The translations under genes and the position numbers were made by a program. A stretch of DNA of 49,797 nt from positions 1-49,797 of the IMG/VR virus record IMGVR_UViG_3300038548_000288. One strand, 5' to 3'. Positions within the stretch are counted from its first letter, which is position 1, and each line of letters starts with the position of its first letter. Positions 1 to 49,797 of the stretch are shown here, piece by piece. The notes under the pieces were generated by a model. The model was not told the DNA's origin. It saw nothing but the letters and a program-made list of their open reading frames with translations, and did no database searches. This DNA is from a virus.

Positions 1-66
1 TTCTTCATCGCGGTAAATGCTATCGCATTTATGCCGCTGTTCATCGCTTTCGTAGCGACGGCGTAA
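1..66 (+). CDS. 3' part of 30-aa membrane peptide (continues from 49644)
   Basis: The first 66 bases encode the last 21 residues and the stop codon of the small membrane peptide whose complete copy lies at 49644-49736. The gene is split only because the circular genome was cut here. The residues are mostly hydrophobic (FFIAVNAIAFMPLFIAFVATA). Confidence 0.75.
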   Translation, partial: FFIAVNAIAFMPLFIAFVATA

Positions 67-127
67 CCCCTACGGGGTGGGGCTGGTCAAACAGCCTCGC
101 CCCCATGCACGACGAAGTTCACGCAGG
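1..127. repeat. Terminal direct repeat, left copy (circular overlap)
   Basis: The first 127 bases are identical, base for base, to the last 127 (49671-49797). An exact overlap of 127, the largest k-mer commonly used by short-read assemblers, is the usual sign of a circular contig rather than a biological terminal repeat. The unique genome is therefore 49,670 bp. This fits a circularly permuted phage genome, or one whose true ends were lost in assembly. Confidence 0.95.
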
Positions 128-168
128 AGAGATCACACAAGCCACCCCGAAGGGGTGAGGGAGAGAAA
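67..168 (+). promoter_or_regulatory. Composite hairpin spacer module S1
   Basis: Between the stop at 64-66 and the ATG at 169 lie several elements. A small hairpin sits at 66-78 (ACCCC/GGGGT). A 12-bp stem with 6-nt loop GTCAAA sits at 74-103, its arms pairing throughout if two G-U pairs are allowed. The box CATGCACGACG..TTCACGCA follows, then a hairpin at 144-156 (ACCCC-GAA-GGGGT) and the Shine-Dalgarno GGGAGAG. The first hairpin and the 12-bp stem share bases 74-78, so they cannot form together. The same layout recurs in other early spacers. Confidence 0.7.
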
Positions 169-420
169 ATGGCTGGTCGAATCGAAGGCTCGCTCGCTGT
201 GCTCGTGGAAAACATCACGCACGAGGCAGAAACGAGAGCCAAAAGCGTTTCTCGCGAGGACCCAGAGCTTGCTCTGGACTACCTCGACGAAATGGCCGAT
301 CTCATGCAGCAGCAGGCGGTTTATCTACGCAGCGTGAGGCAGGAGATCAGCGTGCGAGAGAGAATCCGCCAGCAGGACAGCGAAGCTGAAGCCGAAGCGA
401 TCGACGATTTGAGGCTGTAA
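169..420 (+). CDS. Small early protein, unknown
   Basis: An 83-residue acidic, mostly helical protein with no recognised domain. It has alternating charged residues and a Gln-rich stretch (LMQQQAVYLRSVRQ) that could form a short amphipathic helix or coiled coil. The ATG at 169 follows a strong ribosome binding site (GGGAGAGAAA) that matches the other early genes, and a hairpin spacer lies on each side. It is the first gene of the rightward early array after the circular join. Its position suggests expression soon after infection; its function is unknown. Confidence 0.7.
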   Translation: MAGRIEGSLAVLVENITHEAETRAKSVSREDPELALDYLDEMADLMQQQAVYLRSVRQEISVRERIRQQDSEAEAEAIDDLRL

Positions 421-532
421 AAACAGCCCGAAGGGCTGGAGGGTGTCGAAGCCTTCCAGCCCATTGCCCCGAAGGGGCAGCAGGACAGCAGAAAAACGCA
501 AACACAGCCCTTTGGGCTGGGAGAGAATCGAA
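421..532 (+). promoter_or_regulatory. Composite hairpin spacer module S2
   Basis: The hairpin CAGCCC-GAA-GGGCTG lies at 424-438. It overlaps the 5' arm of a 12-bp stem-loop at 433-462 with loop GTCGAA, so the two are alternative structures. Further hairpins lie at 466-478 (GCCCC-GAA-GGGGC) and 505-519 (CAGCCC-TTT-GGGCTG), the latter running straight into the ribosome binding site GGGAGAGA before the ATG at 533. Confidence 0.7.
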
Positions 533-979
533 ATGAGTGGAGTTTACGAGCAAACGGTGGCCGAGCACACTTGGACGCCCACGATGGAAATCGCGGCCAT
601 GTGCGGTGATTGCCCCGAGTGCGGCGAGAGAGGCGAGCACCAACACACAGAGTTCTCCGGAGGAGACGGCGAGAGAGGCTACGTCGAGTACGCTTGCTGT
701 TCCTGTGGAACAGAGTGGACCGACAGCTACAACCTCGTGCAGCGCACGGTTTATCCACGCCTGAACGACGATCTCCTAGTGGAGATCGCGGCAGAGAAGG
801 CTCTTGAAGCTACGCTTCAAACTCCGCGTGATGATCGTGAAACGATCTGGATCGACGGTGTTGAGCAGCAGCTTTTCAGCGTGGATGAGGCGTATGAAAT
901 CTGGGCGAGCGAGCAAGAATACCTCGCGGAAAGGGACCACAAAGGGCTTGGTGGCGAAGTCGCTATCGTGATGGGTTAA
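533..979 (+). CDS. Zinc-ribbon-containing early protein
   Basis: A 148-residue protein. Near the N-terminus are two Cys pairs, CGDCPECGERGEH and, about 28 residues later, CCSCGTEW, spaced like a zinc ribbon that could bind nucleic acid or protein. The C-terminal half is acidic and helical with no recognised domain. The open frame extends upstream to 443, but the ATG at 533 is preferred: it follows GGGAGAGAATCGA, the conserved early ribosome binding site, and the upstream extension would cover the hairpin spacer. A role in host takeover or regulation is only a guess. Confidence 0.75.
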   Translation: MSGVYEQTVAEHTWTPTMEIAAMCGDCPECGERGEHQHTEFSGGDGERGYVEYACCSCGTEWTDSYNLVQRTVYPRLNDDLLVEIAAEKALEATLQTPRDDRETIWIDGVEQQLFSVDEAYEIWASEQEYLAERDHKGLGGEVAIVMG

Positions 980-1084
980 CAGCCCCAAAGGGGCTTCAGG
1001 GGCTCGCGGTGTCAAAGCCGCGAGCCTCCATGTACGACGCAGTTTCACGCAAAACAGCCCTATGGGCTGGGGAGAGAAAACGAG
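980..1084 (+). promoter_or_regulatory. Composite hairpin spacer module S3
   Basis: Right after the stop is a hairpin AGCCCC-AAA-GGGGCT at 981-995. A 12-bp stem-loop at 999-1028 follows, with loop GTCAAA and outermost wobble pairs. The 3' arm is followed directly by the box CATGTACGACG..TTTCACGCA, then the hairpin CAGCCC-TAT-GGGCTG (1055-1069) and GGGGAGAG. This is the cleanest example of the early spacer architecture. Confidence 0.72.
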
Positions 1085-1396
1085 ATGCTGACACACACCG
1101 AGGATCACCCGATCTGCGTAGCAGTTCACGAGGCAATCGTGAGATCGGAGAACTCTGCACTGTGCGCGGAGGGGAGAGAATTTGCGCTCGACTGCATCGA
1201 AGATGCACTGGCCCATTCGACGGCTGAGATGCTGGAGGCCGCACGCACGAGGCTCATCGAAGCTGCGGTCAAGGGGCTCACGGCCAGGATCGTGACGCAG
1301 GAAGAAAGCGCGTGGATGACCATGCTGGAGCAGGAATCTCGCAAGCGCGAGGAAATCAGAGCCGAAGCAGAGCTTTTCGAGGCTCACGGAATCTAG
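1085..1396 (+). CDS. Small early helical protein, unknown
   Basis: A 103-residue protein, predicted almost entirely helical, rich in Glu, Arg and Ala, with the C-terminal third (residues 75-98) strongly charged. No family is recognised. Two Cys residues early in the protein are not arranged as a metal site. The ATG at 1085 is set 9 nt after GGGGAGAG, which itself follows a hairpin. It is expressed with the other small early genes; each is separated by a hairpin module rather than overlapping its neighbour, which is unusual for this otherwise compact genome. Confidence 0.7.
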   Translation: MLTHTEDHPICVAVHEAIVRSENSALCAEGREFALDCIEDALAHSTAEMLEAARTRLIEAAVKGLTARIVTQEESAWMTMLEQESRKREEIRAEAELFEAHGI

Positions 1397-1502
1397 GCGG
1401 TCTAGGTGGCGCGGGATCAAACCCGCGCTACCTCATGCACTACGAGAGGTTGAGGCTGTTAAACCGACCCCGTTAGGGGTCACTTACGCAGGAGAAAACG
1501 CA
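1397..1502 (+). promoter_or_regulatory. Composite hairpin spacer module S4
   Basis: A 12-bp stem-loop at 1404-1433 (loop ATCAAA, one G-U pair) is followed by CATGCACTACGAGAG. A hairpin GACCCC-GTTA-GGGGTC lies at 1466-1481, then CACTTACGCAGGAGAAAACGC before the ATG at 1503. This spacer lacks the small hairpin that usually competes with the 12-bp stem. Confidence 0.7.
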
Positions 1503-1706
1503 ATGTCGAAGACTCACGAGAGTATCACTCTGGAGCGCGTGGAAGAGGCCGTGAAAGAGTCGATGTTTGGCCTTGGAAATCCCGGCTTTTGCCGTGCGTG
1601 CGGTGAAGACGCCGATGGATGCGAGCCTGACGCTCAGAACTACGAGTGCGAGGGCTGTGGGGAAAACGAAGTTTTCGGAGCCGAAGAGTTCCTGTTCTCC
1701 ATCTAG
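1503..1706 (+). CDS. Small zinc-ribbon phage protein
   Basis: A 67-residue acidic protein with four cysteines as CRACG, about 17 residues, CEGCG. The sequence between them (EDADGCEPDAQNYECEGCG) and the FGAEEFLF tail match a small zinc-ribbon protein that I recall as common in environmental and proteobacterial phages, usually annotated as hypothetical. The first 25 residues form a helix. The ribbon probably mediates protein or RNA contact. The start is fixed by the ribosome binding site AGGAGAAAA and by the hairpin module upstream. Confidence 0.78.
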   Translation: MSKTHESITLERVEEAVKESMFGLGNPGFCRACGEDADGCEPDAQNYECEGCGENEVFGAEEFLFSI

Positions 1707-1786
1707 CCCCAAAGGGGCTTCGCGGGTCAAACCGCGAGGCTCCCATTTACGAGAGAGAATCACACACTCAACCGGAGGTTGAAACG
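1705..1786 (+). promoter_or_regulatory. Composite hairpin spacer module S5
   Basis: The hairpin AGCCCC-AAA-GGGGCT (1705-1719) begins inside the stop codon. It shares GGGGCT with the 5' arm of a 12-bp stem-loop at 1714-1743 (loop GTCAAA), so the two exclude each other. CATTTACGAGAGAGAATCACACAC follows, then CAACC-GGA-GGTTG, which holds the Shine-Dalgarno GGAGG inside a small hairpin before the ATG at 1787. Confidence 0.7.
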
Positions 1787-1948
1787 ATGGAATCGAGAGG
1801 ATGCCAGGGCTGTGGATGGCCCATCGACACGACGGCGCTTCGCTTTTACTGCCGCATATGTGATCCCAAAGGGACACGAGAGGCAAACAGCCTGAAGGCT
1901 GAAAAGATGGAGGCAGAGTATCACGCCAACCGGAGGTTGGAAGGATGA
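1787..1948 (+). CDS. Small zinc-ribbon protein, 53 aa
   Basis: A 53-residue protein. Two Cys pairs (CQGCGWP and CRICDP) about 20 residues apart make a minimal zinc ribbon. The rest is a charged helix. The frame is open from 1646, but the ATG at 1787 follows GGAGGTTGAAACG and is the only start consistent with the hairpin spacer. Its stop overlaps the start of the next gene (ATGA), so translation of the lipoprotein gene is probably coupled to it. It is one of at least five tiny zinc-ribbon proteins in this genome. Confidence 0.7.
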   Translation: MESRGCQGCGWPIDTTALRFYCRICDPKGTREANSLKAEKMEAEYHANRRLEG

Positions 1949-2133
1949 AAAAACTGCTGATTTGCAGCCTGGTTTTTCTGGGCTGTGCGACTCAGCCCAT
2001 AGGGCTGGAAGAGAATTGCGACTATCGCATGAACCACAGCGGGATAGTCGAGTGCCACACCGGGTTTTACCCGGCGACGATTGACGCCATCGACCCCTCT
2101 AGGGTCGATCACAGAACCCATATCGACCTGTAA
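1945..2133 (+). CDS. Small predicted lipoprotein
   Basis: A 62-residue protein with a short signal peptide: a MKK charged start, a hydrophobic core LLICSLVF, then LGC, a plausible though not ideal lipobox with Cys14 as the lipidated residue. The mature part is only about 48 residues with two further cysteines (C25, C37), which may form a disulfide. Early phage lipoproteins of this size, such as Llp of phage T5, block the receptor and exclude superinfecting phage. That role is an inference from architecture and early position. The hairpins at 1994-2008 and 2092-2108 lie inside the coding sequence. Confidence 0.68.
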   Translation: MKKLLICSLVFLGCATQPIGLEENCDYRMNHSGIVECHTGFYPATIDAIDPSRVDHRTHIDL

Positions 2134-2151
2134 GGTCGGGAGAGAATCAAG

Positions 2152-2403
2152 ATGATTTTACCTACGGTACACAGCAACGGCACGAGCCGAGAGCAGCTTG
2201 TCCAGCTTAGGCTGGATGTGGTGGCGCCGCTCAGGGTAGCGATTTCGGCGCTGCAAATGGCGTGTCCTCATGCGAGAGACTTCTACCCGCAAGAGGACGG
2301 CGCTTACGATTTCGCTCGCGGTGTTTGGAAGGGGCGCCTGGATCAGCTTTTCAAGCTGATGGGGACGCTGGAGAAAGAGGCTCTGGAGATCCAGAACAGC
2401 TAG
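2152..2403 (+). CDS. Conserved small phage protein
   Basis: An 83-residue protein. The pattern PTVHSNGTS near the N-terminus followed by ARDFYPQEDGAY in the middle matches, from memory, a small family found in many phages of proteobacteria (PTVHLNGTS ... RDYYPQG). I know of no function for it. The rest is two helices, with a hydrophobic/charged repeat at the C-terminus. The start at 2152 follows GGGAGAGAATCAAG. The hairpin CGACCT-GTA-AGGTCG upstream (2125-2139) contains the previous gene's stop codon. Confidence 0.75.
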   Translation: MILPTVHSNGTSREQLVQLRLDVVAPLRVAISALQMACPHARDFYPQEDGAYDFARGVWKGRLDQLFKLMGTLEKEALEIQNS

Positions 2404-2505
2404 GGAGCCGAAGGCTCAGGACGCGCTCTAAGGGGCGCGGGGGGTCAAACCCTCGCTCTCCCATGTACGAGAGAGGCAAGCAGCACTCACGCAACGGAGG
2501 ACAGC
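2404..2505 (+). promoter_or_regulatory. Composite hairpin spacer module S6
   Basis: A first hairpin (GAGCC-GA-GGCTC) lies just after the stop. The hairpin GCGCTC/GGGCGC (2423-2438) overlaps a 12-bp stem-loop at 2432-2461 with loop GTCAAA and one C-T mismatch. CATGTACGAGAGAGG follows, then GCAGCACTCACGCAACGGAGG before the ATG at 2506. The GCAGCAC..ACGCAAC string is shared with the leaders of promoters P1 and P4. Confidence 0.68.
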
Positions 2506-2580
2506 ATGAAAGAGATTCTGATCCTCACCCTATGGGTGATTTTCCTTCACTTCCAGTATCGCAACAACCCGGAGGGTTGA
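2506..2580 (+). CDS. 24-aa single-pass membrane peptide
   Basis: The ATG at 2506 follows the strong ribosome binding site ACGGAGGACAGC and encodes 24 residues ending at the TGA at 2580. Residues 3-16 (EILILTLWVIFLHF) form one hydrophobic helix with a charged tail YRNNPEG. The gene is directly followed, 2 nt later, by the next ATG, whose ribosome binding site (GGAGGG) lies inside its last codons. Tiny membrane peptides are common among early phage genes and often tune host membrane enzymes. No function can be assigned here. Confidence 0.55.
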   Translation: MKEILILTLWVIFLHFQYRNNPEG

Positions 2581-2582
2581 CC

Positions 2583-2909
2583 ATGATTTTCGTATCGCAT
2601 CCCGAGACTCAGGAATGGCGAGTTTCGGTCCCCGTCGAAGACGGGGAAATCAACATCAAAATCAGCCCTGAAGGGCTGGTCATCGACTTCGTGGATATCG
2701 AAGGCGGCGAGTTCGAGCAGTCGTGGCGGACGTGGGATGATCTAGCCGAGAGCGCGAGAAGGCCGTGGTTTCCGGCAGATCCGCCTTCGGCGGCGAGGGA
2801 CGAGTACCGATTCTGGAAGGAGTTATCGGAGATCATGTACGCCTACCCACAGACCGCGCTGAACATAGCGCAGATGCGGATGGACGACACACGACCGGAC
2901 GACGCATAG
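2583..2909 (+). CDS. Early protein, unknown
   Basis: A 108-residue acidic protein. The first 45 residues alternate as short strands (IFVSHPETQEWRVSVPV, then EINIKISPEGLVIDFVDI), suggesting a small beta domain, followed by a helical tail with aromatic residues (W, Y, F). No family is recognised. The ATG at 2583 follows GGAGGGTTGACC; the longer open frame from 2262 would overlap two genes and is rejected. It is the last gene before promoter P1. Confidence 0.7.
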   Translation: MIFVSHPETQEWRVSVPVEDGEINIKISPEGLVIDFVDIEGGEFEQSWRTWDDLAESARRPWFPADPPSAARDEYRFWKELSEIMYAYPQTALNIAQMRMDDTRPDDA

Positions 2910-2937
2910 CGGCGCGGGGCTCTTGGTAAGAGCAGGG

Positions 2938-2966
2938 TTGACAGGGCAAAATTGCCGCTGTAGATT
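2938..2966 (+). promoter_or_regulatory. Promoter P1, sigma70-like, shared phage consensus
   Basis: TTGACA (2938-2943), a 17-nt spacer and TAGATT (2961-2966). The spacer contains GGCAA-AA-TTGCC, a perfect 5-bp inverted repeat that could be an operator. A hairpin GCTCTT-GGT-AAGAGC (2919-2933) lies just upstream. The leader shares TTGGAGGCAGGA and GCAGCAC with P4. It drives the gene at 3007. Confidence 0.82.
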
Positions 2967-3006
2967 GGAGGCAGGAAAGCAGCACTAACGCAAACCGGAG
3001 GTTTTA

Positions 3007-3399
3007 ATGGACAGCAAAGCTGTAGCAGAATTGGAGTCTGGTTTGGCCCACTACTACGGGTCGGAGACTTTCACCGGAATGGGTCCGCTTTTTCCTGGGA
3101 TCGTGATGTCCGAAGGCGCGTTGTTTCTCGCAGAGAAAGCCGGGGCTTACTGGCTTTTCGATGCGATAGCCTCGCATATCGTGACGAACAAGTCCCTTCG
3201 GGAGATGACCGGATACATGATGTTCTGGAACCTGAAGGTCGAAAACGGCGAAGCCGTTCTCACGGTGCGCCGTGATTCTGGCGAGCCTGTGCTGGTCACG
3301 CAGGAGATCGGTTACACCGATTTTCCGCTGGACGAGATCGACATTTGGGCAGGGCAGAACGGAGAGGGTTACACCCTCTATCTGCCGTCAGAGCACTAG
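3007..3399 (+). CDS. DUF6876-like protein
   Basis: A 130-residue single-domain protein. It matches my memory of the DUF6876 family, found in phages and mobile elements: an aromatic start (ALAHYYGSE type), then LAEKAGAYWLFDAIASH, then FWNLKVENGEAVLTV, and near the end TQEIGYTDFPLDEI followed by a final strand (YTLYL). The family has no established function that I know of. The length fits the family. It is the first gene after promoter P1, with the ribosome binding site CCGGAGGTTTTA, so it should be among the more strongly expressed early proteins. Confidence 0.8.
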   Translation: MDSKAVAELESGLAHYYGSETFTGMGPLFPGIVMSEGALFLAEKAGAYWLFDAIASHIVTNKSLREMTGYMMFWNLKVENGEAVLTVRRDSGEPVLVTQEIGYTDFPLDEIDIWAGQNGEGYTLYLPSEH

Positions 3400-3400
3400 A

Positions 3401-3488
3401 CACTGGTGAGGGACGCCCCGAAAGGGGCGTTAAACCGCAAGTCAGGTCCCAAGCCCTGACGCGATGGAATCACACAGGAGGGAGAGAA
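3401..3488 (+). promoter_or_regulatory. Hairpin spacer module S8 (short subtype)
   Basis: ACGCCCC-GAAA-GGGGCGT is followed by TTAAACCGCAA and then a 6-bp stem GTCAGG/CCTGAC with loop TCCCAAGC, then GGAATCACACAGGAGGGAGAG before the ATG at 3489. Spacers at 4223 and 4789 share this second layout: hairpin, TAAACCGCAA, short stem with CCAAGC loop, CACACA, ribosome binding site. Confidence 0.65.
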
Positions 3489-3800
3489 ATGGCGAAAAGC
3501 AGACCCCAGCGATGGGCCGAAGCGGCTGCAAATCTCAGACAGGCGCTAGACGCCATCGACACGCAGAACGTCGAGCACTATGGCGACGAGTTGGCCGCTA
3601 TCCGCGAGGAATACGAACAGTGGCACGCCGACCTTCCAGAGAATCTGGAAAACAGCCCAATGGCTGAAAAGCTGGAGGCCGTAGTCGATCTCGAACTTGA
3701 GTACATCGGCAGCAATATCACGGAAGCGATAGACGAGGCTCGTAGCCTCTGCGAAGACGCCGAAGGCGTCGAACTTCCTCTTGGATTCGGGAGAGACTAG
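3489..3800 (+). CDS. Conserved phage helical protein
   Basis: A 103-residue acidic helical protein. Residues about 40-65 (REEYEQWHADLPENLENSPMAEKLE) and the C-terminal ELPLGFGRD match a family I recall from many phages (EYxxWxDNLPENLxxSxxAEKLE ... LPLGFGRD), function unknown. The ATG at 3489 follows GGAGGGAGAGAA; the longer frame from 3345 overlaps the previous gene and is rejected. A GGCTGCAAA motif lies within it at 3524-3532, encoding Ala-Ala-Asn. Confidence 0.78.
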   Translation: MAKSRPQRWAEAAANLRQALDAIDTQNVEHYGDELAAIREEYEQWHADLPENLENSPMAEKLEAVVDLELEYIGSNITEAIDEARSLCEDAEGVELPLGFGRD

Positions 3801-3806
3801 GAGCCA

Positions 3807-4013
3807 ATGAGAATCGAAATTTCAGCACCCGTGGACGGCAACGGCAATAGCCGTTTTATGTCGGTCACGACCGAGGAATTGGCGAGCGCCATGCGTAGCC
3901 TACCCATGCTCGAAGTCACCGCGATGGAGTTCCGGAGACTTGCGACCGAGATGGGGAAGCCGCTGAACGACGAGGACGCCACTATCGTGGCTTCGGGAGA
4001 GGACTACGCATGA
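3807..4013 (+). CDS. Small early protein, unknown
   Basis: A 68-residue protein with an N-terminal beta strand (RIEISAPVDG), a second strand (RFMSV) and a helical C-terminal half (LASAMRSLPMLEVTAMEFRRLATEMG). No family is recognised. It starts 6 nt after the previous stop, with AGGAGCC as ribosome binding site, and its own stop overlaps the next start. It therefore belongs to a small translationally coupled trio (3489, 3807, 4010) between two hairpin spacers. Confidence 0.65.
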   Translation: MRIEISAPVDGNGNSRFMSVTTEELASAMRSLPMLEVTAMEFRRLATEMGKPLNDEDATIVASGEDYA

Positions 4014-4222
4014 TGAACTACACAGTAGTTTTCGCCTACTCGTCAACGGTGGACGGTGAGGGTCAGAAGGCCCGGCTACGGGTTGAGCAGGTTGAGGCCC
4101 CGAGTCACGCCGCTGCGATAGCGATGGTGGCGAGCAGGTGCCCAGCTACGCCACAGGACGCGGTTTCTATGTGCGCTGTGGGGATCGACAACATCGAGAT
4201 TTTGGTTGGTGAGCCCGAGTAG
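4010..4222 (+). CDS. Small early protein, unknown
   Basis: A 70-residue protein with a beta-alpha-beta layout: strand NYTVVFAYSS, strand KARLRVEQVEA, helix HAAAIAMVASRCP, strand NIEILVGE. The pattern resembles small phage proteins of the EVxAxSxxxAI type, but I cannot name a family. Two consecutive ATG codons (4010, 4013) overlap the previous stop; either may be used. Confidence 0.62.
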   Translation: MMNYTVVFAYSSTVDGEGQKARLRVEQVEAPSHAAAIAMVASRCPATPQDAVSMCAVGIDNIEILVGEPE

Positions 4223-4299
4223 GTGAGGGCAGCCCCTTTGGGGCTGTAAACCGCAAGCTAGGTCCCAAGCCCTAGCATCACACACCGAAGGTGGAGGAT
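4223..4299 (+). promoter_or_regulatory. Hairpin spacer module S9 (short subtype)
   Basis: CAGCCCC-TTT-GGGGCTG (4231-4247) is followed by TAAACCGCAA, then a 6-bp stem GCTAGG/CCTAGC with loop TCCCAAGC and ATCACACACCGAAGGTGGAGG. Loop and linker are almost identical to S8 and S10, while the stems differ by compensating changes (GTCAGG, GCTAGG, GCTGGG). That is evidence that the RNA structure is what is kept. Confidence 0.68.
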
Positions 4300-4788
4300 A
4301 TGAAACAAGCCGAAATGAGGGTGGGCCGTGAGTATGCACACCGGAGAGGCAAGGTGTACTACGCCACCGCCGTGAGGGTCAAGGTTCTCGAAACGAAGCT
4401 CCACCGGGACGATCGCTACGGCTACCCGATGGACAAGGCGGACGGCGTGCGTGTGGCCTTCCTGAACGCCGATGGCGGAGTGCGGCAAGAGCGGGTTGTT
4501 CCGAGCAGCCATATCGTGAGTACGTGGGCGGCAGAGAAAGCCCGCATAGCGGCCAAGGCTCAGGCGAACGAGGAACAGCAAGCCGAGAGGGAGAAGGCAC
4601 AGGAGAGGCTCAAGGCGGCAAAAGAGGCCGTTGGCCTAACCGTGGACTTCGGCAGCAGGATGGGAGTCGAGCAGCTTGAGCACTTCGGCGCGTTGTTGTC
4701 GGCGGCGCGGAAGGTGGTCAACGGCAAGCTGGAATTGGAAAAGGTCGAAGACCTACGGGAAGCGATTTACACGTTCGATTTCAGGTGA
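4300..4788 (+). CDS. Early protein with coiled-coil segment, unknown
   Basis: A 162-residue protein. Residues 1-70 look like a small beta barrel (GREYAHRRGKVYYATAVRV, VRVAFLNADGGV, RVVPSSHI), as in proteins that bind nucleic acid or act as SH3-like adapters. A charged helix of about 40 residues follows (AAEKARIAAKAQANEEQQ..), probably a coiled coil, then a short C-terminal helical domain. The ATG at 4300 is chosen although its GGAGG is only 2 nt away; an in-frame GTG at 4291 is the alternative. No family is recognised. Confidence 0.65.
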   Translation: MKQAEMRVGREYAHRRGKVYYATAVRVKVLETKLHRDDRYGYPMDKADGVRVAFLNADGGVRQERVVPSSHIVSTWAAEKARIAAKAQANEEQQAEREKAQERLKAAKEAVGLTVDFGSRMGVEQLEHFGALLSAARKVVNGKLELEKVEDLREAIYTFDFR

Positions 4789-4858
4789 GGACAGCCCTTC
4801 GGGGCTGTAAACCGCAAGCTGGGTTCCAAGCCCCAGCACACTCACACAGGAGAGAAAA
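4789..4858 (+). promoter_or_regulatory. Hairpin spacer module S10 (short subtype)
   Basis: CAGCCC-TTC-GGGGCTG is followed by TAAACCGCAA, the stem GCTGGG/CCCAGC with loop TTCCAAGC, and CACACAGGAGAGAAAA before the ATG at 4859. The TTCCAAGC loop is the most T-loop-like member of the set. Confidence 0.67.
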
Positions 4859-5146
4859 ATGGCGGACGTGACACAGGTGGCACAGGTCACCGAGGCACAG
4901 GCGAAGCGAAACGCCGAGATCAGAAAGGCGAATCGTCCGAAGGACGAGGCGTGGATCAAGTTTCAGGCTGCAACGAGAGTTCAGCACGAAGACTGGATCG
5001 AAGCGACAAACGCCGAAGGCGCTACGAAGCAGCAGGTTCAAGCCGCGTGGGGCGTGTATCACGAGGGCACAGGTGAGGCGTGGGACACGTACCTCACAGC
5101 CATCGGCGCCTACTCGTCACCCCCGAAGACGGGGAGGCGTGCGTAA
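4859..5146 (+). CDS. Small early helical protein, unknown
   Basis: A 95-residue protein, all helical, rich in Ala, Glu, Gln and Trp, with regularly spaced Trp residues (AWIKFQAATRVQHEDWIEA, AAWGVYHEGTGEAWDTY). The pattern of repeated 'AWxxY' segments resembles short helical hairpins, but no family is recognised. The ribosome binding site is GGAGAGAAAA. It ends just before the hairpin TTCCC-TTC-GGGAA (5148-5160) and promoter P2, so it probably closes the P1 transcription unit. Confidence 0.65.
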   Translation: MADVTQVAQVTEAQAKRNAEIRKANRPKDEAWIKFQAATRVQHEDWIEATNAEGATKQQVQAAWGVYHEGTGEAWDTYLTAIGAYSSPPKTGRRA

Positions 5147-5183
5147 ATTCCCTTCGGGAAAAATGTGGATTTGCACGTCGGAC

Positions 5184-5212
5184 TTGACAGGACAGAATTA
5201 CCGTTGTAACTT
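5184..5212 (+). promoter_or_regulatory. Promoter P2, sigma70-like, shared phage consensus
   Basis: TTGACA (5184-5189), a 17-nt spacer and TAACTT (5207-5212). The spacer GGACAGAATTACCG aligns with P1. The hairpin TTCCC-TTC-GGGAA at 5148-5160 upstream may end incoming transcripts, although it lacks a good T tract. The leader carries CAGCAGCAAAAATCGCAAAC, a relative of the GCAGCAC..ACGCAAAC box. It drives the AAA+ ATPase operon. Confidence 0.82.
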
Positions 5213-5256
5213 GGATCAGCAGCAAAAATCGCAAACCCGAAACAGGAGCAACCGAA

Positions 5257-7146
5257 ATGAACGTACCCTATGCAGCTTGGCCGAAGTACGGACCTTCCGT
5301 GCTGGGTCAAGCCGAGTACGATCGCCAGATCAGCGCATGGCAAGCGTACCAGGACAGTAACCAGCATCGGCGCCCAGCGGGCGAGGAAATGGAGTCCGGC
5401 GAAGCCGAGAGTATGGACAGCTTCACCTACACCAACAAGTACGTGAAGGCCGAGCAGTCTCGAAAGAGAATCTTTCGGGAGCAGAACATCAAAGCCACGT
5501 CGCCAGAGGACGCCATGAAGCAGGGGCGTGACGCGATGAAGGCCGAGCTTGGGCCGATGTACGACGACGACAACGTGAACCAGTACCGCCCCGTTCCGGG
5601 GTCCGAGAAGATCGCCAAGCCGCGTGGTAAGGCGTTCGAGGAAGGCGAGGACGAGCGCCGTAACGACGAGGGCACCAACGGCCACGAGAACGGCCAGGGT
5701 GACGGCCAGGGTGACGGTGACGGCGAAGGTGACGGTGACGGCGAGGGAGAGAATGACGGCGAAGCCGAGAACGACGATCAGCAGGACGATCAGCAGGACG
5801 GTGACGGCGAAGGCGCCGAAGGCGACGGTGACGGTGAGAGTCAGGACGAAGACGATACGCCGAAGATGCCTACGTGCCCCAAGTGCCAGCAGCCCAAGGG
5901 CTCGACCGAAGGTTGCTGCGCCCCGCCCGAGTCTGGCGACCTTCCGAAGCCGGAAGACGGACCCGAAACGGTGCCGAATTTGCAGCTACTTCGGACGGAC
6001 GGTGAAGCTCCCTACCAGGGAGAAGAGGCTGACCTGAAAATCCAGGTTGCCGCCCACCGCGAGATCGTGACCGTGCTGTCGAAGTCGCTGGCGGACGTGG
6101 ACGATTGGACTCGTGGCGTTGTGGACTACCACATTCACCAGCTTTCAACGGAGTTGTACGGCCAAATGACGGCCAGCCACCTGAGCCTCAAGGCTCTGAT
6201 CGCGAAGGGTGGCGGTGAAGGTGGCGTGAGCCGTAAGGCTCTGCAGGGTTTGGAACAGAAAATGAAGTCCATGATCGCCGCCCATGAGGCGAAGATCAAC
6301 GTGGCCGATATCGCAGAGCAGGTGGGCGAGATGCTGGCCGCTCCGAAGCGCATCGAGATCGTCTACGACGATAAGGTCATCGAGATCAAGGGGACGCCGC
6401 ACAAGGCTTTCGACGAGTGCCTTACAGGGCTCAAGCGTGGGCTGAACCTGTTCCTCGTGGGTCCCGCTGGAAGCGGAAAAGGCTTCCTGGCCCAGCACTT
6501 GGCCGAAGCGTTCGACCTTCGGTTCGGATTCCAGTCGTGCTCCGAGGGCATGAGCGAGGGCATGGTGCTTGGGAGAGGCGTGCCGCTGGCCGAAGAGTTC
6601 CTGTATCTGCAGAGCAGCTTTGTGGACTTCTACGAGAACGGTGGAGTGTTCCTGCTGGACGAGATTGACGCTGCAAATCCCAACGTGCTGCTGATAATCA
6701 ACGAGTGCTTGAGCAGCCCGCACCTAGCGATTCCGAACCGCGTGAAGAACCCGTATGCGGTTCGCCACAAGGATTTCCATGTGATCGTCGCCGCCAATAC
6801 GTGGGGCACAGGTCCGAACATGGAGTACGTGGGACGCAACAGGTTGGACGCAGCTTTCCTCAACAGGTTCATCGGATCTACGATCGAACTTGGCTACGAT
6901 GCGAGGATCGAAGGCGAGATCGCGAAGGCGTACCTGGGTAAAGAGGCCGCGATGCCGGTGCTCAAGAGATTCTGGGGCGTTCGTAAGAAGCTCGACGAAA
7001 TGAACATCCGTAGGATCTGGAGCACCAGAGGGCTGGAGAAAATGTGCATAGCCCTGGCCGATGGGGATGACATGGCGAAGGTGCTCGACGCCCACACGAG
7101 AGGCTGGACCGTGGACGAGAAGAACAAGGCGGGGGTGGCAGCATGA
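5257..7146 (+). CDS. MoxR-like AAA+ ATPase with acidic linker
   Basis: A 629-residue protein. The ATPase core is of the MoxR/AAA_5 type: Walker A GPAGSGKG at residues 402-409, Walker B FLLDEID with D468-E469, then a sensor-like AANTWG and the DAAFLNRF arginine-finger region. Residues about 144-201 are a low-complexity acidic linker of Gly/Asp/Glu, followed by a cysteine cluster (CPKCQ..GCC) that may bind zinc. MoxR ATPases usually remodel or load cofactors together with a VWA protein. The next gene, overlapping by ATGA, looks like such a partner. It is the first gene after promoter P2. The substrate is unknown. Confidence 0.88.
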   Translation: MNVPYAAWPKYGPSVLGQAEYDRQISAWQAYQDSNQHRRPAGEEMESGEAESMDSFTYTNKYVKAEQSRKRIFREQNIKATSPEDAMKQGRDAMKAELGPMYDDDNVNQYRPVPGSEKIAKPRGKAFEEGEDERRNDEGTNGHENGQGDGQGDGDGEGDGDGEGENDGEAENDDQQDDQQDGDGEGAEGDGDGESQDEDDTPKMPTCPKCQQPKGSTEGCCAPPESGDLPKPEDGPETVPNLQLLRTDGEAPYQGEEADLKIQVAAHREIVTVLSKSLADVDDWTRGVVDYHIHQLSTELYGQMTASHLSLKALIAKGGGEGGVSRKALQGLEQKMKSMIAAHEAKINVADIAEQVGEMLAAPKRIEIVYDDKVIEIKGTPHKAFDECLTGLKRGLNLFLVGPAGSGKGFLAQHLAEAFDLRFGFQSCSEGMSEGMVLGRGVPLAEEFLYLQSSFVDFYENGGVFLLDEIDAANPNVLLIINECLSSPHLAIPNRVKNPYAVRHKDFHVIVAANTWGTGPNMEYVGRNRLDAAFLNRFIGSTIELGYDARIEGEIAKAYLGKEAAMPVLKRFWGVRKKLDEMNIRRIWSTRGLEKMCIALADGDDMAKVLDAHTRGWTVDEKNKAGVAA

Positions 7147-49042: not shown

Positions 49043-49071
49043 TTGACAGGACCAGCTTGCCGGTTTAGGTT
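49043..49071 (+). promoter_or_regulatory. Promoter P4, sigma70-like, shared phage consensus
   Basis: TTGACA (49043-49048), a 17-nt spacer and TAGGTT (49066-49071). The leader TTGGAGGCAGGACCAGCAGCAC is almost the same as that of P1 (TTGGAGGCAGGAAAGCAGCAC), so both make transcripts with nearly identical 5' ends. It drives the early genes through the circular join. Confidence 0.82.
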
Positions 49072-49121: not shown

Positions 49122-49532
49122 ATGAAAAACTCACACGCTCTCACGCACGACACTTCGACGATCATCGGCTTCGACGAGATCCCGCCCGCAGGATATAACT
49201 ACACGCTCCCGCGACTAGTTGCCGCACCCGAGGCAGAGTGCTGGGAACGAACGATTTTGGGGATGGACGATTGCCCGCCCGCTGACTACGACGCGGAGGT
49301 GCGCTACTTAGACCCGCAGGAGAGAATCGGGGCGGACGAAAACGCAGTTTTCGCGGTGCTTGACGAAACCAGCGAAGCTGGCGTCGAGAGTACGCAAGTC
49401 TTGATCGCTCGCTTGGAGGCGCTAAGTATCCCCGAGCACGAGGCTTTCAAGCTCGTTTCGATCTGGCGTCAAGGCCATGCGGACCCGTGGATTAGGGCGC
49501 ACGATGACCAGCTTGAGATGTGGTGCAAATAA
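49122..49532 (+). CDS. First early gene, unknown
   Basis: A 136-residue acidic protein. The first 60 residues (STIIGFDEIPPAGYNYTLPRLV, then MDDCPPADYDAEVRYLDP) have repeated short motifs PPAGY and PPADY; the rest is helical (GVESTQVLIARLEALSIPEHE) with a tryptophan-rich end. No family is recognised. It is the first gene after promoter P4, so it should be among the earliest and most abundant phage proteins. The start at 49122 follows ACGAGGAAAACGAAA. Confidence 0.68.
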   Translation: MKNSHALTHDTSTIIGFDEIPPAGYNYTLPRLVAAPEAECWERTILGMDDCPPADYDAEVRYLDPQERIGADENAVFAVLDETSEAGVESTQVLIARLEALSIPEHEAFKLVSIWRQGHADPWIRAHDDQLEMWCK

Positions 49533-49643
49533 CGCGGGATTAGTCACCTCCGCGCGGTGTCAAAGCCGCGTGAGAGGCTTGCCCAAATGGGCAGCACGAC
49601 GCAGTTAACACGCAAACAGCCCGAAGGGCTGGAAGGTTGGAGA
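49533..49643 (+). promoter_or_regulatory. Composite hairpin spacer module S12
   Basis: A stem with core CGCGGT / GCCGCG and loop GTCAAA (49553-49570), then an inserted hairpin TGCCC-AAAT-GGGCA, the box GCACGACGCAGTTAACACGCAAA, and CAGCCC-GAA-GGGCTG before GGAGA. The same elements as in S1-S6 with an extra hairpin inserted between stem and box. Confidence 0.65.
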
Positions 49644-49736: not shown

Positions 49737-49797
49737 CCCCTACGGGGTGGGGCTGGTCAAACAGCCTCGCCCCCATGCACGACGAAGTTCACGCAGG
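49671..49797. repeat. Terminal direct repeat, right copy
   Basis: Identical to positions 1-127. It contains the end of the 30-residue membrane peptide gene and most of spacer S1. It closes the genome into a circle. Confidence 0.95.

Follow-up and report, generated by a model that had tools for sequence, protein, structure and literature searches.

Minihelices in the early spacers of a circular phage genome

The window analysed here is the whole of the IMG/VR virus record IMGVR_UViG_3300038548_000288 (49,797 nucleotides), in which seven spacers between early genes each contain a hairpin with a 12-position stem closing a loop GTCRAA or ATCAAA, referred to below as the minihelix. A terminal direct repeat of 127 bp at the record ends indicates a complete, circular phage genome of 49,670 bp. 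The rightward early genes begin at about 49.1 kb, cross the join and extend to 5 kb and beyond; the capsid, portal and terminase genes are on the minus strand. We found no near relative of the phage in the INPHARED set, and a search of IMG/VR with its major capsid protein returned about 30 relatives, the nearest of them (G004) with a capsid identity of 94%, followed by G006, G009 and G010 with 88%. Since relatives of the capsid protein also occur on two contigs in metagenome-assembled genomes (MAGs) of Gemmatimonadota, with identities of 70% and 53%, the host is probably a member of this phylum.

All seven minihelices lie on the plus strand. Copy 7 (49547..49577) is located between genes 49122-49532 and 49644-66, the latter extending across the circle, and has a full 12-bp stem with one bulged A and a GTCAAA loop. 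Because the genome is circular, its spacer sits just upstream of copy 1 (74..103; 12/12 bp, loop GTCAAA), which is followed by CATGCACGACG and duplicated at 49744-49773 inside the terminal repeat. Further downstream lie copy 2 (433..462; 12/12 bp, GTCGAA, then ATTGCCCC..GGGGCAGC), copy 3 (999..1028; 12/12 bp, GTCAAA, then CATGTACGACG), copy 4 (1404..1433; 12/12 bp, ATCAAA, then CATGCACTACG), copy 5 (1714..1743; 12/12 bp, GTCAAA, then CATTTACGAG) and copy 6 (2432..2461; 11/12 bp, GTCAAA, then CATGTACGAG). The loop thus reads GTCAAA five times, and GTCGAA and ATCAAA once each. An earlier note on this DNA had located all seven hairpins, but the copy that it regarded as partial (49553-49570) has the full stem given above; the 12 pairs that it described are present in five copies and, with the bulge, in copy 7, but copy 6 has only 11.

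The minihelices start 7-28 nt past the upstream stop codon, and their stems are stable and GC-rich, with RNA folding predicting the stem in six of the seven copies. In five copies the 3' arm runs directly into CATGYA or CATTTA, in place of which copies 2 and 7 have a short extra hairpin (TTGCCCCGAAGGGGC and TTGCCCAAATGGGC, respectively). Intrinsic terminators do not account for these structures: none of the six hairpins within positions 1-5400 was listed by the terminator scan, and a T run is absent after all seven stems. We rejected the possibility that the CATG of the tail serves as a leader-peptide or leaderless start, given that the ATG is missing in several copies and the frame to the gene is not kept. 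A pseudoknot between the GTC of the loop and a GAC in the tail was likewise discarded, as the GAC is found in some copies only. From the CATG after copy 6, an open frame (2463-2909) continues into the gene whose end is at 2909 and overlaps with 2506-2580, a small gene; this is probably coincidental.

Base pairing and tRNA-like geometry are preserved

Across both strands of the entire window, only five perfect 12-bp hairpins with a 6-7-nt loop were detected, all of them minihelix copies with a GTCRAA or ATCAAA loop and an unpaired 13th position. When at least 11 of 12 pairs and a T-loop-type loop were required, seven hairpins were observed on the two strands (six on plus and one on minus, the bulged copy 7 not being among them), compared with 0.36 per dinucleotide-shuffled genome and a maximum of three in 100 such genomes.

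We then aligned 13 plain copies from the window and its relatives. Their stem cells are paired in 97.4% of cases, and changes on both sides occur at 12/12 pairs, bearing out the compensating changes that had been proposed from the window. The covariation score is 0.827, compared with 0.212 after shuffling and at most 0.224 after sliding, and none of 500 shuffles reaches any of the five measures, these values counting copies, many of them paralogous, and not independent events. Sliding the partner by a single column lowers the pairing to about 54%. Base pairing is what the copies preserve most.

The geometry of the hairpin resembles the stacked acceptor and T arms of a tRNA. A stem of 12 positions is present in 13/13 copies, each with 10-12 standard pairs, and the next position, corresponding to -1/73 in a tRNA, is unpaired in 12/13 copies and never paired in the window. 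The first pair is G1-C72 in 11/13 copies, and TCRA is intact in all loops. The canonical 7-nt T-loop TTCRANN is found in three of the relatives' copies, in L074 (at 4634), G006 and G010, the window copies having the 6-nt versions. ARAGORN detected no tRNA or tmRNA, that is, no cloverleaf with an anticodon arm, in the window, L074, L051 or L054. An attachment site derived from a tRNA 3' end was rejected because both acceptor strands directly flank the T-arm.

The minihelix and larger tRNA-like forms in relatives

Four copies of the hairpin are present in the nearest relative, G004, where it is kept in spacers whose flanking genes are just 51-80% identical to those of the window at the protein level. 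Among them, the copy at L074:4448 corresponds to copy 7, with genes related to both flanking genes, and the copy at 6176 corresponds to copy 6, preceding a gene related to 2506-2580. A third copy (L074:4634) lies between the genes that flank copies 1 and 2 in the window, and its loop is the canonical tRNA T-loop TTCGACT. The same loop is found in G006, G009 and G010, which share the 12-bp hairpin GCCTGGCCGGGG-TTCGACT-CCCCGGCYGGGC, followed by CATGCA.

A larger tRNA-like form occupies six spacers in G006 and G010 and a seventh in the virus contig G039. It consists, in order, of an acceptor-like stem (5-6 bp), 11 nt inserted on the 5' side, a T-stem (6-7 bp) and a loop TTCGANN; insert positions 4-5 are GG in 7/7 of these forms, which were aligned by hand for counting. 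The invariant GG would fit the need of a mimic of the D-loop G18-G19 docking on the T-loop. Together with the TTCGACT loops and the strong covariation, this D-loop-like insert upholds the likeness to an acceptor/T-arm minihelix proposed earlier. Descriptor searches gave nine plain and 17 insert-type matches, and zero and three, respectively, in reversed sequence; the remaining insert-type matches vary in form and are probably due to chance.

As far as the exact patterns searched can tell, the element seems confined to this lineage. A first hairpin model (R1) matched in the window and G004 only, and model matches in G022 and G028 (E about 1e-3) were set aside as looking like chance, the spacer context being absent. 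Over IMG/VR, the pattern GTCAAA-N11-13-CATGYACGACG gave 19 matches, none with a stem; GTCGAA..CATGCAG gave 15, with 12/12 pairs in the known relative G004 only; and the acceptor-insert-T-arm pattern gave 14 stretches, of which only those of the two known relatives fold. In the two MAGs, only 150 candidates out of thousands were scored with the model, and this search is not evidence of absence.

Two further groups of hairpins were seen in virus contigs. Repeated spacers of G039 (L150:10686-10738, L096:3440-4400) start with GCGGAGTC, two of them containing TTGTGAGGG, and hold hairpins, one of which is a tRNA-like T-loop element. In the contigs L094 and L095, GGTTCGACTCC T-arms have outer pairs resembling an acceptor stem and run into CATGCAG; they may be distant members of the class.

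Type-P5 twister ribozymes in equivalent spacers

Three other early spacers, with a CCAAGC loop, occupy positions equivalent to the minihelix spacers. By their match to Rfam RF02684 and the alignment of the conserved core, they are type-P5 twister self-cleaving ribozymes, a known class. All three lie on the plus strand, at 3405..3458 (60.4 bits, E 3.5e-10), 4222..4274 (52.7 bits, E 3.3e-8) and 4784..4835 (46.5 bits, E 1.2e-6), and exceed the gathering score of 37.6 bits. The earlier note had read them as shorter-stem versions of the minihelix without a described counterpart in phages; both statements have to be withdrawn for these spacers. The GTCRAA hairpins, in contrast, are not members of this family, and they match no Rfam family, twister included, even at E 10.

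Twisters are also present in G019, G025 and the MAG G042, and in the relative G021 they mostly start at the stop codon itself. Stretches of L073 (11132-15603, minus strand) and G042 (C89:30989-32150) each hold three or four type-P5 twisters, those of L073 mostly beginning at the upstream gene's stop codon. Self-cleaving ribozymes are often located near phage genes (PMC4604425).

A common leader follows minihelices, twisters and promoters

Downstream of minihelix, twister and promoter alike, we found an ACRCA box followed by a ribosome site. The box lies within 60 nt upstream of 12/13 genes led by one of these devices or by a promoter, with 0.11 expected for each. After copy 1, the leader (104..168, plus strand) comprises CATGCACGACG, ACRCA boxes, a short hairpin and a GGGAGAG ribosome site ahead of the gene starting at 169; after copy 3, it comprises CATGTACGACGCAGTTTCACGCA, a short hairpin and GGGGAGAG ahead of the gene starting at 1085 (1029..1084, plus strand). 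Three sigma70-like promoters on the plus strand precede comparable leaders: TTGACA-17-TAGGTT (49043..49071), followed by a leader with GCAGCACCACGCAAACC; TTGACA-17-TAGATT (2938..2966), by one with GCAGCACTAACGCAAACC; and TTGACA-17-TAACTT (5184..5212), by the leader AGCAGCAAAAATCGCAAACC. In G006, the stretch behind the minihelix (GCAGGACCCCTCGAAAGGA) is very similar to the leader that directly follows its promoter (GCAGGACCCTCTCTCTCTCGAAAGGA). As devices and promoters precede a common leader, it is simplest to assume that the devices generate new 5' ends resembling the primary one.

Many early spacers also have a short hairpin (GCCC-NNN-GGGC, or CAACCGGAGGTTG enclosing the ribosome site) at or near the ribosome-binding site. 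Such hairpins lie at 424-438, 505-519, 1055-1069, 1769-1781 and 1927-1939 of the window and may be involved in translation control.

Proposed processing of the early transcript

We infer the cleavage, the enzyme and the benefit from sequence, and on balance consider it probable, by a modest degree, that the minihelices are tRNA-mimic processing sites cut by ribonuclease (RNase) P, possibly together with RNase Z. Each would be a minimal tRNA mimic, with a continuous 12-bp helix (7 bp acceptor-like and 5 bp T-stem-like) under a T-loop-type loop, acting as punctuation in the early transcript. Host RNase P would recognise the T-loop and the 12-bp stack and cut just 5' of the stem, and the host's RNase Z, expected to be the enzyme that matures its CCA-less tRNAs, may cut on the 3' side of the stem. 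By such cuts, the polycistronic early RNA would be split into pieces that start with, or just after, a stable hairpin and carry the ACRCA leader box and the ribosome site, as at promoter-derived 5' ends. In the three other spacers, the type-P5 twisters would do an equal job by self-cleavage.

This proposal draws on work in which acceptor/T-stem/T-loop hairpins are cut efficiently at the canonical site, and the 12 bp of acceptor and T-stem have been suggested as the measuring device of RNase P (PMC11143913). RNase Z, in turn, clamps the tRNA elbow and matures CCA-less pre-tRNAs, being blocked by CCA (PMC4919913). Both Gemmatimonadota MAGs with capsid relatives encode a class-A RNase P RNA with a GGGUAGG stretch. 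At all their readable tRNA 3' ends (14 lines, one of them misaligned) CCA is not encoded, so the CCA-less phage hairpin resembles a host pre-tRNA; several of these ends continue with ATG or ATT, as does the tail of the phage hairpin.

Several observations weigh against cleavage by RNase P. The 3' RCCA is absent after the stem, where a tail close to NWTGY is found instead; the claim is therefore that the hairpin would work like an RNase P substrate, not that it is a canonical one. The window loops, at 6 nt, are shorter than the canonical 7-nt loop, and G or A takes the place of U54. N-1 is A or C in 12/13 copies, E. coli RNase P favouring U, and one stem starts with C-G and another with A-U. 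A competing fold is predicted for copy 6, whose minimum-free-energy structure differs from the minihelix. The host assignment itself depends on just two MAG contigs. Finally, the pairing and covariation whose loss in related phages the earlier note had named as speaking against its proposal are kept in the relatives having the element, but most of the other, more distant relatives, several of which are fragments, gave no match to the model.

The hairpins could instead stabilise or insulate messages, or be RNase III sites, protecting or separating mRNAs with no cut by a tRNA enzyme and with a secondary likeness to the T-loop. Stable GC-rich stems past stop codons and ahead of ribosome sites agree with this, as does pairing being the most preserved feature of the copies, and a 12-bp stem could block exonucleases. 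It would leave unexplained, however, the fixed 12-bp length with an open 13th position, the invariant TCRA and the canonical T-loops of the relatives, and the larger versions with their invariant GG insert; moreover, RNase III usually needs longer duplexes. We regard this explanation as unlikely. Less probable again, and the last in our ranking, is that a phage or host protein, or a host tRNA-arm enzyme such as TruB or TrmA, binds the hairpins and that the translation of each early gene is thereby regulated without cleavage. Enzymes that modify the T-loop accept T-arm hairpins as minimal substrates, and a conserved loop with a conserved 3' tail beside the ribosome site would suit such a role. 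Yet the self-cleaving twisters in equivalent spacers point to cutting, the window copies lack the U54 required by TrmA, and no candidate regulator was found.

Cleavage by RNase Z alone or mainly, 3' of the discriminator, would make the downstream message start at or near AUGYACGACG. The tRNA genes read without CCA in the two MAGs and the account of RNase Z as maturing CCA-less pre-tRNAs (PMC4919913) are in its favour, and the conserved tail that adjoins the stem, with a leader like those of promoters behind it, would position the new 5' end 3' of the stem. A 5' cut may nevertheless occur, and the conservation of G1-C72 favours RNase P; we consider RNase Z as the main enzyme improbable, only marginally less so than a binding site.

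Relation to known systems and meaning

The minihelix resembles the RNase P model hairpins of the McClain/Altman AT1 type (PMC11143913) in its continuous 12-bp helix, T-loop-type loop, unpaired N-1/N73 and mostly G1-C72 first pair, but it is natural, repeated in mRNA spacers, devoid of RCCA and, in the window, has a loop of 6 nt. RNase P also cuts phage M3 RNA, C4 antisense RNA, T4 gene 32 mRNA and operon mRNAs (PMC11143913). As in those cases, the proposed target of the host enzyme is a structure other than a tRNA within a phage or operon transcript; those are single sites, however, whereas here one type recurs in seven spacers and would share the job with ribozymes. In mitochondria, tRNAs punctuate the transcripts (PMC8601606), and there too tRNA structures between genes mark polycistronic cut points, but the phage structure would be a mimic of one tRNA arm and not a functional tRNA. 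The start-associated sequences (SAS) and extended SAS (ESAS) of Cluster K mycobacteriophages (PMC3203893), offered earlier as the nearest analogy, are likewise repeats and inverted repeats just upstream of the start codons of a subset of genes. They conserve sequence, in contrast to the pairing conserved by the phage hairpins, and the 13-bp SAS GGGATAGGAGCCC is not enriched in the window (one 2-mismatch match versus 1.54 expected by chance), leaving no more than an analogy. In the open-access papers covered, we found no early operon in which recurrent mini-tRNA mimics alternate with twisters; the search being confined to such papers, this absence is no proof of novelty.

That this phage lineage has mini-tRNA punctuation, in which host RNase P, and perhaps RNase Z, divides the early operon into shorter messages with a common leader, and in which the mimics are evolutionarily interchangeable with twisters, we judge close to an even call, leaning slightly to the doubtful side. 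If true, the classic minimal substrate of RNase P would be in natural, repeated use as a signal for cutting an operon, and a single operon would employ two unrelated RNA-cutting devices in spacers of one kind. This would suggest a role for phage twister ribozymes, provide a convenient system in which to test how mRNA targets are selected by RNase P, and supply compact punctuation marks driven by host enzymes.

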